From: Deltaproteobacteria bacterium
Lineage (GTDB): Bacteria > Desulfobacterota > Binatia > UTPRO1
Assembly: GCA_029262315.1 (NCBI GenBank)
Contig: JAJCZP010000198.1
Coordinates: 1 to 47,476 of the forward strand
Length of the DNA: 47,476 bases
Direction of reading: 5' to 3'
Below are positions 7,895-47,476 of the stretch, one piece after another. The notes beneath the pieces were generated by a model that was given only the letters and a program-made list of their open reading frames with translations, was not told where the DNA came from and did no database searches. Each line of letters starts with the position of its first letter. Within the stretch, counting starts at the first letter, position 1. The position numbers were made by a program, and so were the translations under genes.

Positions 7895-8644
7895 TCAGGC
7901 CGCCACCGGAGCCGTCACCCGGCGGTACGCGTCATTGAGTGCCGCGCGCGCCCCACCCAGCCCGTCGGGCCCGTCCCCTCCATGCTGGACGGCGCCTTCC
8001 CAGGCGATTTGCCCCCGATGCAGGATGCAGGCGCGATCGGCGATCGCGAGTCCACGATCGAGATCGTGCGTCACGGTAATCACGGTCCGCCCCTCGCATT
8101 TGGCCGTCGCAAGAAGCACCGTGAGGACATCCGCAGCGGTCGCGTCCAACCCGCTCCAGGGCTCATCGAGCAACACGAGATCGGGCGTAGGCAGCAGCGC
8201 GCGTGCCAACGCCAAGCGTTGCTCCATCCCACGAGAGAGGACGCGCAGCGGGCGATGCGCAACATCGGCGAGCCCAACGCGGGCGAGCCACGACACCGCC
8301 TCCGCCTCCGGAGCAGCCGCGCCGTATGCGCGCGCGAAGAACGTCAGGTTCTCGCGCGCGGTGAGGTCGGGATAGCAAAAACTCTGATGCGAGACGACGC
8401 CGATCCGACGACGCACCTCCGGCCCAATGGCGTCGCTGCCGAACAACCGCAGGCATCCTCCCGTCGGCCTCGTGAGTGTCGCGCAGAGGCGCAGCAACGT
8501 GCTCTTGCCCGCGCCGTTCGGTCCGAAGATCGTCAAGGCCTCGCCGCGCACCACCCGCAGAGTGACGTCACGAAGCACCGGCGTCCGACCAAAGGACTTG
8601 CTCAGGCCGTCAGCCTCGACGGCGAAGTCGCAAGCGGCCGTCAC
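7895..8644 (-). CDS. ccmA: Cytochrome c maturation ABC ATPase CcmA
   Basis: 249 residues. It shows Walker A GPNGAGKS (41-48), the Q-loop region SHQSFCYPDLTARENL, an LSRGMEQR signature and Walker B LVLLDEPWSGLD with a downstream THD switch. The signature glycine is followed by MEQR, a CcmA-like variant. The start is a GTG at 8644 that overlaps the ccmI stop (GTGA). It pairs with CcmB to power release of holo-CcmE from CcmCD. Its position between ccmI and ccmB separates it from generic ABC ATPases. Confidence 0.94.
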   Translation of the reverse strand: MTAACDFAVEADGLSKSFGRTPVLRDVTLRVVRGEALTIFGPNGAGKSTLLRLCATLTRPTGGCLRLFGSDAIGPEVRRRIGVVSHQSFCYPDLTARENLTFFARAYGAAAPEAEAVSWLARVGLADVAHRPLRVLSRGMEQRLALARALLPTPDLVLLDEPWSGLDATAADVLTVLLATAKCEGRTVITVTHDLDRGLAIADRACILHRGQIAWEGAVQHGGDGPDGLGGARAALNDAYRRVTAPVAA

Positions 8645-19403: not shown

Positions 19404-20093
19404 ATGGGGCGTCCGAGTCTCGCGGGGCCGCGTCGGCGGCAAATCATCGACGGCCTCCGCGCCGCCATCATCAAGCACGGTCTCGCCGACGCCTCGGTAC
19501 AGCGCATCGCGACAGAGGCCGGCGTGCCCTCCGGCCTCATTCACCACTACTTCGCGTCGAAGGAAGCGCTGCTGATCGCAACGGTCGACCAGGTCGTCGA
19601 AGACCTCCGCACACCCCTGATGTCGGAGTTGAACGTACTCGATCCCGAGCGCGCCCTCACACGCGCGCTCGACTTTCTGCTGCTCGAGTTTCCTGCCGAT
19701 CGCGAGCGGCGCCTGCTGCTGGCCGAGATCTGGATCGCGGCCCTCCGGCGCCCTCAGCTCCGCGAACGCATCGCCGAGCTGAACACGGAAATCGTCACCG
19801 AACTGACGGCGCTGCTCGATCGTCTCCCGGATCGCGCGCGCCATCACGCCGAGAATCACGACCTCGCCATGCTGCTGATCTGCTACGCCGACGGCGCCGA
19901 TCAGCAGCGCATGTTCAACCCGAAAGGCATAGACCCGCGCCAGCTGCGCCGTACGGCGGACGAGTTGATCGCGACGTATCGAGGAGCGAACGATGGAAAA
20001 ACTGATGGCCGAGCATCGCCGCATGATCGGCGACTTCGAAGTAATCGAACACGTGGACGAAAAGAAGATCGCCGATCTGCGCGCTCAGGTTGA
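19404..20093 (+). CDS. TetR/AcrR family transcriptional regulator
   Basis: 229 residues from the ATG at 19404. The N-terminal helix-turn-helix includes IIDGLRAAIIKHGLADASVQRIATEAGVPSG and the hallmark LIHHYFASKEAL. The middle is the helical ligand-binding domain. The last about 34 residues (after IATYRGAND) overlap the next gene by 101 bp in another frame and are Arg-rich, an extension that does not look like domain sequence. A strong dyad sits at its start codon. It probably represses itself and the di-iron protein downstream. It has BetI-like general organisation, but the ligand is unknown. Confidence 0.9.
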   Translation: MGRPSLAGPRRRQIIDGLRAAIIKHGLADASVQRIATEAGVPSGLIHHYFASKEALLIATVDQVVEDLRTPLMSELNVLDPERALTRALDFLLLEFPADRERRLLLAEIWIAALRRPQLRERIAELNTEIVTELTALLDRLPDRARHHAENHDLAMLLICYADGADQQRMFNPKGIDPRQLRRTADELIATYRGANDGKTDGRASPHDRRLRSNRTRGRKEDRRSARSG

Positions 20094-21063
20094 TATCGCC
20101 GCTCCGATCTCGCTCCATTGGACGTGGGAGTACGGGAGCGAAGTCGAGGAACTCCGCGCCCTCTACGAGCGCGGCAAGCATGGCCAGTGGGACGCCGAGA
20201 CCGACCTGGACTGGTCGATCCCCTTCGAGCGCACCGAATGGTTCATGCCACAGGAAAACGCCTCACTCCTCGGCACCGTGCTGAAGAACCTCGGCGCCGA
20301 CGAGAAGACCTGCCGCGAAGCGCAGTGGGACGAGTTCTGTCACACCATGTCGCAGCTCCTGCACGGCGAACAGGCCGCGCTGCAGCTCTGCGGACAGCTG
20401 ACCAACGTGTGCCCGACGATGGATCAGAAGTGGTACGCCGGCTCGCAGGTCATAGACGAAGTGCGCCACGTCGAGGTGCTCTCGAAATTTCTCGCCCGGA
20501 AGACCGGCGCGCTCTACCCGATCGATCCCACGCTGAAGCTGCTCCTCGACAGGCTCCTCGAGGCCCCCACGTACAAGATGAAGACGCTCGGCATGCAGTG
20601 CCTGTTCGAGGGCATGGCGGTCGGCATCTTCGACGTCATCAAAACCATCACGACGAACCCACTACTGAAGGAGATGCTCCGTCGGGTGGAGCTGGATGAG
20701 GCGCGGCATGCCGCCTTCGGCGTGCTGACGATGCGTCGCATCGTCGCCGATGCGACCCCGGAAGAAATGATCGAACTCGAGGACTTCGCGTTCGAGGTAC
20801 TCGAAGCGCTGAACGCCAACCAGCAACTCGACATGCTCCAGCTCTTCGGCCCGAAATACGGGCTGAATCCGGAAGAAGTCGTCCAGCTGCTCCACAGCTC
20901 GCCGCACTGGACCGCATTCAACAGCGAAATCTACATGCACACGGTCATACCGAATCTGCAGCGCCTCGGCCTCGTCACCGAGCGCACCGAGGCTCGCTAC
21001 CGCGCCGTTGGTATCCTCTCGGACACCCGCACACCGCCCCGCGATTTGCCGTTGCTGAACTAG
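19993..21063 (+). CDS. Ferritin-like di-iron oxidase (AurF / R2-like)
   Basis: 356 residues from the ATG at 19993, preceded by AGGAGCG. A complete carboxylate di-iron site is visible in the right order: Glu126 (HGEQAAL), Glu156 and His159 (DEVRHVE), Glu206 (LFEGMAV), then Glu236 and His239 (DEARHAA). This is the E/ExxH/E/ExxH pattern of ribonucleotide reductase R2-like and AurF-like oxygenases. A catalytic oxidation is likely, but the substrate cannot be read. It overlaps the tetR gene, so it is co-transcribed and presumably induced by the TetR ligand. A ribonucleotide reductase role is unlikely, because no large subunit is nearby. Confidence 0.83.
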   Translation: MEKLMAEHRRMIGDFEVIEHVDEKKIADLRAQVDIAAPISLHWTWEYGSEVEELRALYERGKHGQWDAETDLDWSIPFERTEWFMPQENASLLGTVLKNLGADEKTCREAQWDEFCHTMSQLLHGEQAALQLCGQLTNVCPTMDQKWYAGSQVIDEVRHVEVLSKFLARKTGALYPIDPTLKLLLDRLLEAPTYKMKTLGMQCLFEGMAVGIFDVIKTITTNPLLKEMLRRVELDEARHAAFGVLTMRRIVADATPEEMIELEDFAFEVLEALNANQQLDMLQLFGPKYGLNPEEVVQLLHSSPHWTAFNSEIYMHTVIPNLQRLGLVTERTEARYRAVGILSDTRTPPRDLPLLN

Positions 21064-22222: not shown

Positions 22223-22657
22223 ATGAAAGAGCGAGTTGAAGAGCTAGCGCGCTTCATCGATTTCGTCTCGGCGCGCTTCAAAGAGAACGAGGGCCTGTTC
22301 GAGAGCCGCCTCGAAGTATCGCACCGCGAGCTGGCACTCCTGCGCACGCTTGCGGCCGAGGGACCGATGATCAGCAAGAATCTCGGCGCTCGCTTCCAGG
22401 TACCCGTAAGCACGATGACCGGGCTCGTCGATCGCATGGAGAAGAAGGGCCTGCTTCGCCGGGCTCCGAACCGGCGCGACCGGCGCTCGATCGAGCTCGT
22501 GGCCACGCCCGCCGGGACGCTGGTGCTGGAAGAGCAACACCGCGGGTTACAGGCGATGGCGCGCGGCATTCTCGATGCACTCCCGAAATCGGATCAACAG
22601 ACGCTCATCGCCATTCTGCGCCGCGTCGAGCACGGCGGGAACCGGAAGGCCAGCTAG
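22223..22657 (+). CDS. MarR family transcriptional regulator
   Basis: 144 residues from the ATG at 22223, with CGGAG about 9 bases upstream. The winged helix-turn-helix is clear: REL ALLRTLAAEGPMISKNLGARF, then recognition helix PVSTMTGLVDRMEKKGLLRR and wing PNRRDRRSIELVATPAG. No cysteine is present, so it would sense a ligand and not sense oxidation by a Cys switch. The start lies only about 10 bases after the predicted transcription start, so the leader is very short. It heads an operon with an SDR and a putative selenoprotein and probably represses all three from the dyad at 22187-22207. Confidence 0.92.
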   Translation: MKERVEELARFIDFVSARFKENEGLFESRLEVSHRELALLRTLAAEGPMISKNLGARFQVPVSTMTGLVDRMEKKGLLRRAPNRRDRRSIELVATPAGTLVLEEQHRGLQAMARGILDALPKSDQQTLIAILRRVEHGGNRKAS

Positions 22658-22732: not shown

Positions 22733-23779
22733 ATGAAACCAACGCTCGTCACCGGTGCCAACGGGCACCTCGGGAACAACATCTGTCGACAGCTCGTCGA
22801 ACGCGGAGAGAAGGTACGTGCGATGATCCGCGCTAGCGCCGATCCGGCCCCGCTCGCAGGTCTCGACCTCGAGATCGTCCGCGGCGACATCATGGATGCC
22901 GCATCAACCCAGGACGCCACTGAGGGCTGCGGACGCGTCTACCATACCGCAGCCGCCTTCGTGATGTGGTCGACCGATCCCGAACGGGAAATCATTCAAC
23001 CGTGCCGCGACGGCACGCGCATCCTCATGGAGGCAGCCGCCAAGGCTGGCGTCGAAAAGGTCGTCTACACGAGCACCACAGGCACCATCGGCTTCTCCGC
23101 TGATCCGGGCGCGCCGGCGGACGAGAGCCATCGGAACACCGATCCACATACCGCCTACGTCCGGGGGAAGATCGCGGCCGAGAAAGAGGCGTTCGCCGTT
23201 GCCGCCCGCACGAAGCTCGCGATGAGCACCATCCATCCCGGACTGATCCTCGGCCCGCGCTTCTTCAAGGTGAGCGAGTCGGTGAAGCAGATCGCCGACT
23301 TCGTGAATCAGGGCGCACCCGCGTACTTTGACGGCGGCTTCGACATCGTCGACGTGGAAGACGTCGCGCGCTGCTCGCTCCTCGCGATGGAGAAAGGCGG
23401 CGATCGCGAGCGCTACATTGCGTCGGGCGAGCACATGACGATCAAGCACGCCTTCGAGACGCTGGGCGAGTTGACCGGTTTGAAGGCGCCGTCGCTCCGA
23501 CTGCCAACGCCGGTGCTTCGAGTTGCCGCCGGCCTGATGGAGATCGGCGCGAAGGTCACGGGCGGACGTCCAATGCTCGACCGACACCAAGTCGACGAGT
23601 TCGCCGGCAAGTTCTCCTACTTCGACAGCGGGAAAGCGGAGCGGGAGCTCGGCTACACGTACCTGCCAGCGCGCACGGTCTTGGCCCGAACGGTGGCGTG
23701 GCTCGTCGATCGCGGTTTCGTCGAGGAAAAGCGCAAGGCCGTCCTGCAGCTGGACCCCTCGCTCAAGGGGGCGTACTAG
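22733..23779 (+). CDS. NAD(P)-dependent extended SDR (epimerase/dihydroflavonol-reductase type)
   Basis: 348 residues from the ATG at 22733, with a strong AAGGAG site. The Rossmann motif TGANGHLG covers residues 7-14. The catalytic Tyr142-x3-Lys146 (YVRGK) and the upstream STTGT serine match extended SDRs. The best general likeness is to dihydroflavonol-4-reductase/HpnA-like enzymes; it probably reduces a carbonyl or oxidises an alcohol with NAD(P). It follows marR by 75 bp and ends 6 bp before the AhpD-like gene, so the three form an operon. The substrate is unknown, but co-regulation with a thiol/selenol peroxidase-like protein hints at reactive carbonyl handling (inference). Confidence 0.88.
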   Translation: MKPTLVTGANGHLGNNICRQLVERGEKVRAMIRASADPAPLAGLDLEIVRGDIMDAASTQDATEGCGRVYHTAAAFVMWSTDPEREIIQPCRDGTRILMEAAAKAGVEKVVYTSTTGTIGFSADPGAPADESHRNTDPHTAYVRGKIAAEKEAFAVAARTKLAMSTIHPGLILGPRFFKVSESVKQIADFVNQGAPAYFDGGFDIVDVEDVARCSLLAMEKGGDRERYIASGEHMTIKHAFETLGELTGLKAPSLRLPTPVLRVAAGLMEIGAKVTGGRPMLDRHQVDEFAGKFSYFDSGKAERELGYTYLPARTVLARTVAWLVDRGFVEEKRKAVLQLDPSLKGAY

Positions 23780-23785
23780 AGGACC

Positions 23786-24355
23786 GTGGCTGGCACGAGA
23801 GTCCGTTCACTGGAAGGCCGTGAGGCGGGCCTCGTGGCCCGCCTCGTGCAGCTCATTCTGCGCGTCAACGTCGGGAAGAGCGTCAACCCGATCAAGGTCC
23901 AGGCACACTCCACACGGGCAATGCTGGCGAGCTTCCTGGCCAACGCGATCATGAGTACGGGCCGCGCCCGGATCGGCAACGATCTCCGCGAGCTGGTAAA
24001 GATCCGGGCAGCGACACGGAACGGCTGCCCCTTCTGAATGGACATCCACGCTGCCGTCGGCGGTGACCAGGGCCTGAGCCAGCGACAGATCGACGCCGCC
24101 CTGCTCCGCACCGATGCGTCCATGCTTCCGATGCGAGAACAACTCGCCCTGGAGTACTCTGATCGGGTAAGCGCGACGCCGGTAGACGTTCCCGACGAGT
24201 TCTTCGACAAGCTGCGCGCCGCGTTCTCCGAAGTGGAGATCGTCGAGCTGACCTCGCACATCGCGCACGAGAACTACAACGCCAAGTCGAACCGCCCGCT
24301 ACGCGTCGAACCGAACGACTTTTGTCCGATCCCGCCGCCCGCCGTGAAGGACTGA
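23786..24355 (+). CDS. AhpD-like/carboxymuconolactone decarboxylase family protein, probable selenoprotein (in-frame TGA = Sec84)
   Basis: Read through the TGA at 24035-24037, the gene encodes 189 residues from a GTG at 23786 (AGAGGA upstream, 6 bp after the SDR stop) to the TGA at 24353-24355. The motif is NGC81-P-F-Sec84-MDIH88, matching the NGCxxCxxxH redox centre of AhpD. Glu69 lies 12 residues before Cys81. The spacings 12, 3 and 4 equal those of Glu118, Cys130, Cys133 and His137 in M. tuberculosis AhpD. The frame beyond the TGA is intact and family-like (ELTSHIAHENYNAKSN). A SECIS-like hairpin follows at 24049-24065. It probably acts as a selenol/thiol peroxidase or disulfide reductase in the cytoplasm. 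Alternatives are a Cys-to-stop mutation, a sequence error, or two polypeptides with reinitiation at the ATG right after the TGA. Confidence 0.85.
24049..24065 (+). promoter_or_regulatory. Candidate bacterial SECIS hairpin
   Basis: CGCTGCC (24049-24055) and GGCGGTG (24059-24065) pair along all 7 positions (two of them G-U) around the triloop GTC. The stem begins 11 bases after the TGA and the loop G is 19 bases after it. Bacterial SECIS models ask for a stem-loop with a G among the first loop bases about 16-37 bases past the UGA, so this fits. SelB binding is inferred. Confidence 0.7.
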
Positions 24356-45710: not shown

Positions 45711-45800
45711 CACCACGCCGCACGCTTCGCCGAGCGCACGACGCGCCCTCCGGAGGCCTTGACTGTGGCGGGCTTCAGCGCGCAATCTAGGGCCCGATCG

Positions 45801-45892
45801 CTGGGGGAGCCGCGGACCTCGCGGCTGAGAGGGCAGGCAGTGGGCCTGCCGACCCCTCGAACCTGACCCGGTTCATACCGGCGGAGGGAAGC
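45801..45892 (+). promoter_or_regulatory. TPP riboswitch (THI element)
   Basis: The conserved string is visible in order: GGGGAGCC, GGCTGAGAGGG, a variable hairpin (GGCAG/CTGCC), CGACCCCTCGAACCTGA and GCGGAGGGAAG. The last block includes the GGAGG ribosome-binding site just upstream of the thiC ATG (45897). When TPP binds, that site is expected to be masked, so control is probably translational. The position directly before thiC is the usual one. Confidence 0.95.
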
Positions 45893-45896
45893 GGAC

Positions 45897-47476
45897 ATGT
45901 CGACGATCTCAACGCAACTCGAAGCAGCGCGCGCCGGAACGATCACTCCTGAAATGCAACGGGTCGCGGAGCGCGAGGGCGTGACCGCGGAAATGATCCG
46001 CAGCGAGGTTTCCCGGGGTCGCCTCGTCATTCCCGCCAACAAACACCATCTCGCGGGAAGCGCGGCGTCGACACCAACACGCGCATGGGGCCGTGCCCTC
46101 GCGAAAGGAACGGGCGACACCGCCACCGGCCATCCCGGCGCCACGGGACAGGCACGACTCTGGGTGAACCAAACGGTGACGCAACGATGGACCGAGATCA
46201 CCGACGCCACACACCTCCAGGGCGAGCACGCGCCAAAGCGCCTCGACCCGACCGGCATTGGCCGGATGGTCACGACGAAGATCAACGCCAACATCGGCGC
46301 GTCACCGGTGGCCAGCACCACCGACGACGAGGTGGAGAAGCTTCAGTGGGCGCAGAAGTATGGCGCCGATACGCTGATGGATCTCTCAACCGGTGGCGAC
46401 CTCGTCGGCTGTCGGCAGGCCATCATCGATCATGCCACCATTCCGATCGGCACCGTTCCGATCTACTCGATGATTCTCGGACGCTCGATCGAAGAACTCA
46501 GCTACGACGTCATCCTGGAGGAGATCGAGCGCCAGGCTCGTCAGGGCGTCGACTACTTCACGATCCACGCCGGCGTCTTGCGTGAGCACCTGCCCCTGAT
46601 CGAACGCCGCGTCACCGGCATCGTGTCGCGCGGCGGGTCGCTCCTCGCAAAGTGGATGATTCACCACCGCAAAGAGAACCCCATGTACGAGCTCTTCGAC
46701 GAGATCAGCGCGATCATGCGGGAGTACGACGTCACGTATTCGCTCGGTGACGGGCTCCGTCCGGGATGCCTCGCCGACTCGTCCGACCCAGCACAGCTCG
46801 CCGAGCTGAGCACCCTCGGCGAGCTCGTCGCGCGCTCACGCGAGGCGGGAGTCCAGGCCATGGTGGAGGGTCCGGGGCACGTTCCGCTCGACCAGGTCGG
46901 CACGAACATGCGCCTGGAGCAGCAGGTCTGTGACGACGCGCCCTTCTACGTACTCGGCCCGCTCGTGACTGACGTCTTCCCTGGCTACGATCACATCACC
47001 AGTGCCATAGGCGCCACCGAGGCCGCGCGCCACGGCGCCGCGATGCTCTGCTACGTCACGCCGAAAGAGCACGTCGGACTTCCGAAGGCCCAGGACGTCA
47101 TGGCCGGATGCATCGCCTACAAGATTGCCGCCCACGCCGGCGATCTGGCCCGAGGCATCACCGGCGCGCGCGACTGGGACGATGATCTGTCGCGTGCCCG
47201 CGCCGCGCTCAACTGGCCGAAGCAGTTCGAGCTGGCCTTCGATGGCGACACCGCCCGCGCCCTCCACGATGAGGATCTCGACGTCGACACCGACTTCTGC
47301 GCCATGTGCGGCCACGACTGGTGCAGCATGCGGATCTCCAAGGAGATCGTCGCGTTCACCAGCGGTAAAGACGCCGCGTTCCAGCCCGATCGCAAGGCGA
47401 TGCCGAGCCCGGGCGTCAGCGAGCAGGGGAAGGAGTTGCTCGCCGCGCGAGGCTCGCTGCCGATCGTCGACGGTCA
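45897..47476 (+). CDS. thiC: Phosphomethylpyrimidine synthase ThiC (3' end beyond window)
   Basis: 526 codons from the ATG at 45897 to the edge, with no stop seen. It makes the HMP-P pyrimidine of thiamine from aminoimidazole ribotide by radical SAM chemistry. ThiC blocks are [57 protein letters not shown] and the C-terminal cluster [11 protein letters not shown]. Between VIPANKHH (about 51) and DPTGIGRM (about 117) lies about 60 extra residues, Ala/Thr/Gly-rich, where most ThiC have only a few. The extra segment is in frame and uninterrupted. The gene is controlled by the TPP riboswitch just upstream. Confidence 0.95.

Follow-up and report, generated by a model that had tools for sequence, protein, structure and literature searches.

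The locus and its interrupted reading frame

The DNA analysed here, which we call the window, is a 47,476-nucleotide stretch (contig JAJCZP010000198.1, positions 1 to 47,476) of a Deltaproteobacteria genome. A predicted AhpD-like selenoprotein gene lies behind two other genes on the same strand, and the features of the locus are these:

22223-22657, + strand: gene for a MarR-family regulator, upstream of the SDR gene
22733-23779, + strand: gene for an extended SDR/NAD-dependent epimerase (best NCBIfam match TIGR03466 HpnA, below cut-off), ending 6 nt before the GTG start of the next gene
23786-24355, + strand: predicted AhpD-like selenoprotein gene, GTG start at 23786, 189 codons, Sec at codon 84, TGA stop at 24353-24355
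23945-24106, + strand: Pfam CMD (PF02627) match, residues 54-107, with the internal TGA inside the match
24026-24028, + strand: TGC codon of Cys81, which opens the redox motif C-P-F-U; 71 of the 75 aligned homologues have Cys here
24035-24037, + strand: in-frame TGA, predicted Sec84, at the second redox position of C-P-F-U in the AhpD/CMD domain
24049-24065, + strand: SECIS-like hairpin, 7-bp stem (24049-24055/24059-24065) with a GTC triloop (24056-24058)

The selenoprotein gene follows the SDR gene by 6 nt and the SDR gene lies behind the MarR gene, so co-transcription of the SDR and selenoprotein genes is plausible. The preliminary description of this locus spoke of an undescribed operon form; neither the SDR nor the MarR gene was found beside the homologues examined, and no conserved operon was found. 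Elsewhere in the window are a TPP riboswitch (45793-45906, + strand, 73.8 bits) and a gene at 19993-21063 whose product has a weak but over-threshold match to AurF (p-aminobenzoate N-oxygenase) and is possibly a diiron oxygenase.

The frame 23786-24355 contains a single internal stop, the TGA of codon 84 within NGCPFU-MDIH, and a standard gene caller would split it into ORFs 23786-24037 and 24038-24355. The preliminary description had predicted such a split, had placed the TGA at the codon of the second Cys of the AhpD/CMD motif in a frame that is family-like on both sides, and had given spacings of 12, 3 and 4 residues for E69-C81, C81-U84 and U84-H88; the coordinates, the CPFU motif and all three spacings proved correct for the window sequence. 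The PF02627 match (36.9 bits against a gathering cut-off of 23, E 3.6e-9) spans the TGA. Comparison with the homologue of genome G023 gives pN values of 0.09 upstream of the TGA and 0.07 downstream of it (pS 0.64 and 0.56), and comparison with that of G060 gives 0.16 and 0.19 (pS 0.61 and 0.64); the after-TGA value for a third homologue, L044, was left out, being spoiled by a one-codon gap. Purifying selection is thus similar on either side of the TGA. With a CMD match running across the TGA, the TGA kept in independent MAGs and low dN on both sides, the existence of the TGA-containing frame is beyond chance.

Homologues of the TGA codon and a downstream hairpin

A homologue is present in 114 of 145 relatives, with dozens containing exactly one internal TGA. 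In an alignment of 75 sequences, into which G023 and G060 were each entered twice (L011/L040 and L012/L041), 52 have Sec (TGA) at column 84, 16 have Cys there, 6 have another residue and one has a gap. Conservation of an in-frame UGA at a position that holds Cys in homologues is a pattern by which bacterial selenoproteins are recognized, and the exchange with Cys that the preliminary description proposed to look for is therefore seen in the family, the close relatives all being of the Sec form. These close relatives are 86% (G023), 73% (G060) and 62-69% (L042-L044, from MAGs filed as Bacillota and Acidobacteria) identical to the window protein, and all have the TGA at the same codon. Six close sequences, all Sec, form one clade in the tree (support 100/100), and several exchanges between Sec and Cys occur outside it. 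One 65% identical homologue (L032, G029:C56:50054-50260) is without residues ~73-168 in frame, so that the CxxU core is gone; the join falls at an Ala-Lys found at both ends of the deletion, the genome has selA and selC, and the gap may be either a real deletion or an assembly artefact.

Of the 59 genomes in which the homologue occurs in a TGA form, 56 also encode SelA, versus 15 of 28 with non-TGA forms only (Fisher P 1.1e-5, from the matches listed and ignoring the relatedness of the genomes). The five other genomes in the family to which the window's genome belongs lack SelA, and no TGA form is among their listed matches. DNA similarity of the window to G023 and G060 is restricted to the selenoprotein gene. 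The window protein and its G023 homologue are 86% identical and the SelA proteins of the two genomes only 52%, which, with SelA as the one yardstick protein, suggests that the selenoprotein gene was probably spread horizontally.

The hairpin that follows the TGA has a TGA-to-loop spacing of 18 nt and a folding energy of -11.2 to -14.7 kcal/mol. The published bSECIS model specifies a loop of 3-9 nt with a G among its first two nucleotides, a stem of 4-16 bp, a distance of 16-37 nt from the UGA and an MFE of -7.5 or lower (PMC13188914), and the window hairpin agrees with it in loop, stem, spacing and MFE. Across 24 Sec homologues, 96.4% of cells are paired, five of the seven pairs show two-sided changes and slid registers fail, and a set of 14 clustered sequences has 93 of 98 possible pairs versus 57-59 for synonymous recodings; the members of both sets were chosen among Sec genes with the stem in this register, a choice that favours pairing. 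With no preselection, folding compared with synonymous recodings gives a mean z of -1.38 for all 50 Sec genes and -0.47 for the 16 Cys genes. At least five of the seven stem pairs are formed in 35 of the 50 Sec genes, most of the other 15 pairing better with a loop 1 nt longer; the Cys homologues mostly form two. For the window sequence alone the excess of stem over synonymous recodings is marginal (P ~0.10), and an Rfam scan at the TGA gave no SECIS-type match. Taken over the family, the hairpin is covarying and conserved in the Sec homologues and missing from the Cys homologues.

It is formally conceivable that an ordinary AhpD-like gene of the Cys type has suffered a nonsense mutation here, or that the TGA is a base-call error in such a gene, as the two ORFs seen by a standard caller and the selC gene not seen in this assembly (below) would allow. 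Such an origin does not sit with a TGA at exactly the same codon in independent MAGs and dozens of homologues, with dN low relative to dS on both sides, or with a conserved hairpin. We regard a pseudogene or sequencing error as extremely improbable, and rejected it on the conserved TGA position and the coding constraint.

Selenocysteine machinery and TGA-bearing paralogues in the genome

The genome to which the window belongs (5.92 Mb, 298 contigs, 99.96% complete) encodes the following proteins of selenocysteine synthesis and insertion, all above their curated cut-offs:

contig C145, 33021-34142: selA
contig C145, 34212-36107: selB, directly after selA
contig C79: selD

The selA-selB pair is intact. 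No selC gene for tRNA-Sec was recovered from the 298 contigs of the draft with the Rfam tRNA-Sec covariance model, a class-specific covariance model built from the selC genes of 16 relatives, or three patterns, and all candidates were rejected as tRNA-Ser/Leu-like or chance matches; selC was not found in G060 either. An evident tRNA-Sec gene, with the loop CTTCAAA, is present in 16 of 21 chosen relatives of the class, and a candidate in G003 that reaches the Rfam cut-off was rejected as tRNA-Leu-like in sequence. In G024 a contig end truncates the tRNA-Sec gene (L079), and in G044 and G083 the gene (L061 and L063) lies no more than 350 nt from such an end, so that an assembly gap is the simplest reading of the missing selC. 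The preliminary description had made its selenoprotein call depend on these genes: selA, selB and selD are there, and selC, which was not seen in the draft, is found in most of the close relatives checked. A tRNA fragment in this genome (L084, contig C87 near 8378-8390) consists of the 3' half of a tRNA-Ser, as in L091 from the anticodon stem onward, with an unrelated 5' flank and no ARAGORN call; it looks like the attachment-site remnant of an integrated element.

Nine CMD matches were found in the genome. A single internal TGA, always at the C-x-x-U-x-x-x-H position, interrupts five of these genes, namely that of the window, two CHYU genes on contig C190 and CFYU genes on contigs C256 and C73. 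One of the C190 proteins scores above the TIGR01926 cut-off, and the C73 protein, with 446 bits against a cut-off of 175, falls within the curated (seleno)protein family NF041238 (AhpD_rel_CFYUT). These TGA-bearing paralogues are the strongest internal control for the use of Sec at this position in the organism. The CHYU genes (L144, C190:9344-9553, and L145, C190:6180-6326) are ~3 kb apart, a possible selenoprotein gene cluster, and the CFYU genes (L147, C73:2300-2419, and L146, C256:15748-15960) encode long proteins.

Reading of UGA as another amino acid (Cys, Trp or Arg), by suppression or code reassignment, would accommodate the failure to find selC in this genome and in G060. However, other genes in the window end in TGA and TAG and selA of this genome ends in TGA, so there has been no genome-wide code change; among the CMD genes an internal TGA occurs in five, always at the same redox position, selA, selB and selD are intact, and the relatives have a canonical tRNA-Sec. 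We consider a residue other than Sec highly improbable, and code reassignment was rejected on the conserved TGA position and the normal TGA stops. The interpretation as an AhpD-like selenoprotein, first put forward in the preliminary description, is supported instead by the Sec machinery, the Sec/Cys exchange, the SECIS-like hairpin and the TGA-bearing AhpD paralogues. With a probability of about 95%, the gene encodes an AhpD-like (CMD-family) thiol/selenol oxidoreductase in which UGA codon 84 is read as Sec via the downstream hairpin, and the predicted insertion of Sec at codon 84 is very strongly supported by the comparative sequence evidence.

Probable chemistry and relation to known AhpD-like proteins

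In the proposed mechanism, SelB with Sec-tRNA(Sec) would be recruited by the mRNA hairpin at 24049-24065 and the UGA at codon 84 would be read as selenocysteine during translation. In the mature protein it is most likely that the Sec84 selenolate would attack an oxidised substrate such as a peroxide or a disulfide, that Cys81 would act as the resolving residue to form a selenenylsulfide, and that a cellular thiol system would then re-reduce the selenenylsulfide. The AlphaFold model of the window protein (mean pLDDT 93.2) is all helical and has the AhpD-like fold. Its best Foldseek matches in the PDB are the AhpD-core peroxidase-related proteins 6k40, 2oyo and 2prr (TM 0.81-0.83 for 6k40 and 2oyo), and the debrominase Bmp8 (6ohj, 6ohi) is among the matches at TM ~0.76.

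The proton relay of M. tuberculosis AhpD consists of Glu118, Cys130, His132, Cys133 and His137 (PMC3141380). The Glu-Cys-Cys-His residues, whose spacing in that AhpD the preliminary description had recognized here, are present in the window protein, Sec taking the place of the second Cys. The pattern does not extend to the family, in which neither E69 nor H88 is conserved, the position of H88 being mostly Asn even in the 62-69% identical relatives. The full M. tuberculosis AhpD relay is therefore not defining, and the Cys/Sec pair alone is a firm functional feature.

Instead of reducing peroxides or disulfides, the protein might have its main role in reductive dehalogenation or another thiol-dependent reduction, comparable to that of Bmp8, a debrominase with the CMD fold. 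The Bmp8 matches, the unconserved Glu69 and His88 and the lack of an ahpC or peroxiredoxin gene among the scanned neighbouring genes would fit such a role, although AhpD-core and peroxidase-related proteins give the best matches in both structure and sequence, and we think it unlikely. It is a comparably speculative idea that a Sec-only subfamily was passed horizontally between distant lineages (its MAGs bear the labels Deltaproteobacteria, Bacillota and Acidobacteria) and employs selenol chemistry for a reaction not linked to AhpC, for example reductive dehalogenation or detoxification. In the literature searched, nothing useful was found on the selenoproteins of this lineage or on Bmp8.

Our preferred interpretation, an AhpD-like thiol/selenol oxidoreductase with Sec84, concerns a kind of protein that is already well catalogued. 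AhpD-like CxxU selenoproteins were reported from the Sargasso Sea in 2005 (PMC1088965) and from the GOS data in 2008 (PMC2398784), and the family has an entry in a 2026 review table (PMC13188914), so the precedent claimed for the class in the preliminary description is a real one. What is added is a small, deeply separate subfamily, and a single uncultured bacterium in which at least five redox genes of the AhpD family are TGA-coded and would be split or lost in routine annotation. The subfamily has no Cys counterpart among close relatives, making it feasible to test why selenium has been kept at position 84.

The window protein passes only the cut-offs of Pfam CMD and the AhpD core domain. 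Its best curated match is NF053654, GroundWater_YciW 'YciW-related (seleno)protein' (E 5.9e-27, residues 61-175), followed by TIGR01926 and the AhpD core domain TIGR00778. NF053654 by its name occurs with and without Sec, and 32 of 32 alignment members match the model; at 94.6 bits against a cut-off of 310, however, the window protein is placed by that model in a sister subfamily and not among the members. It shares with the AhpD-like selenoprotein family TIGR01926 the CMD/AhpD fold, a CxxU motif with Sec for the second Cys and a downstream bSECIS, but it scores 48.6 bits against a cut-off of 81.8 and belongs to its own clade (100/100), in which the other members found are 62-86% identical. 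NF041238 has CxxU at the corresponding position but is a two-domain CFYU family of ~350 aa, whereas the window protein has 189 aa and gives no match to the model at E 0.1. In common with M. tuberculosis AhpD (1KNC, 1GU9), the window protein has CxxC(U) and the 12/3/4 spacing of Glu118, Cys130, Cys133 and His137. In contrast to that likeness, the overall structural match is weak (TM ~0.5, E 0.5), the folds of 6k40, 2oyo and 2prr are closer, TIGR00777 (AhpD) scores 13.9 bits against a cut-off of 191.95, and the relay Glu and His are not kept in the family. The window protein thus represents a distinct, so far Sec-only subfamily of the already known AhpD-like selenoproteins.
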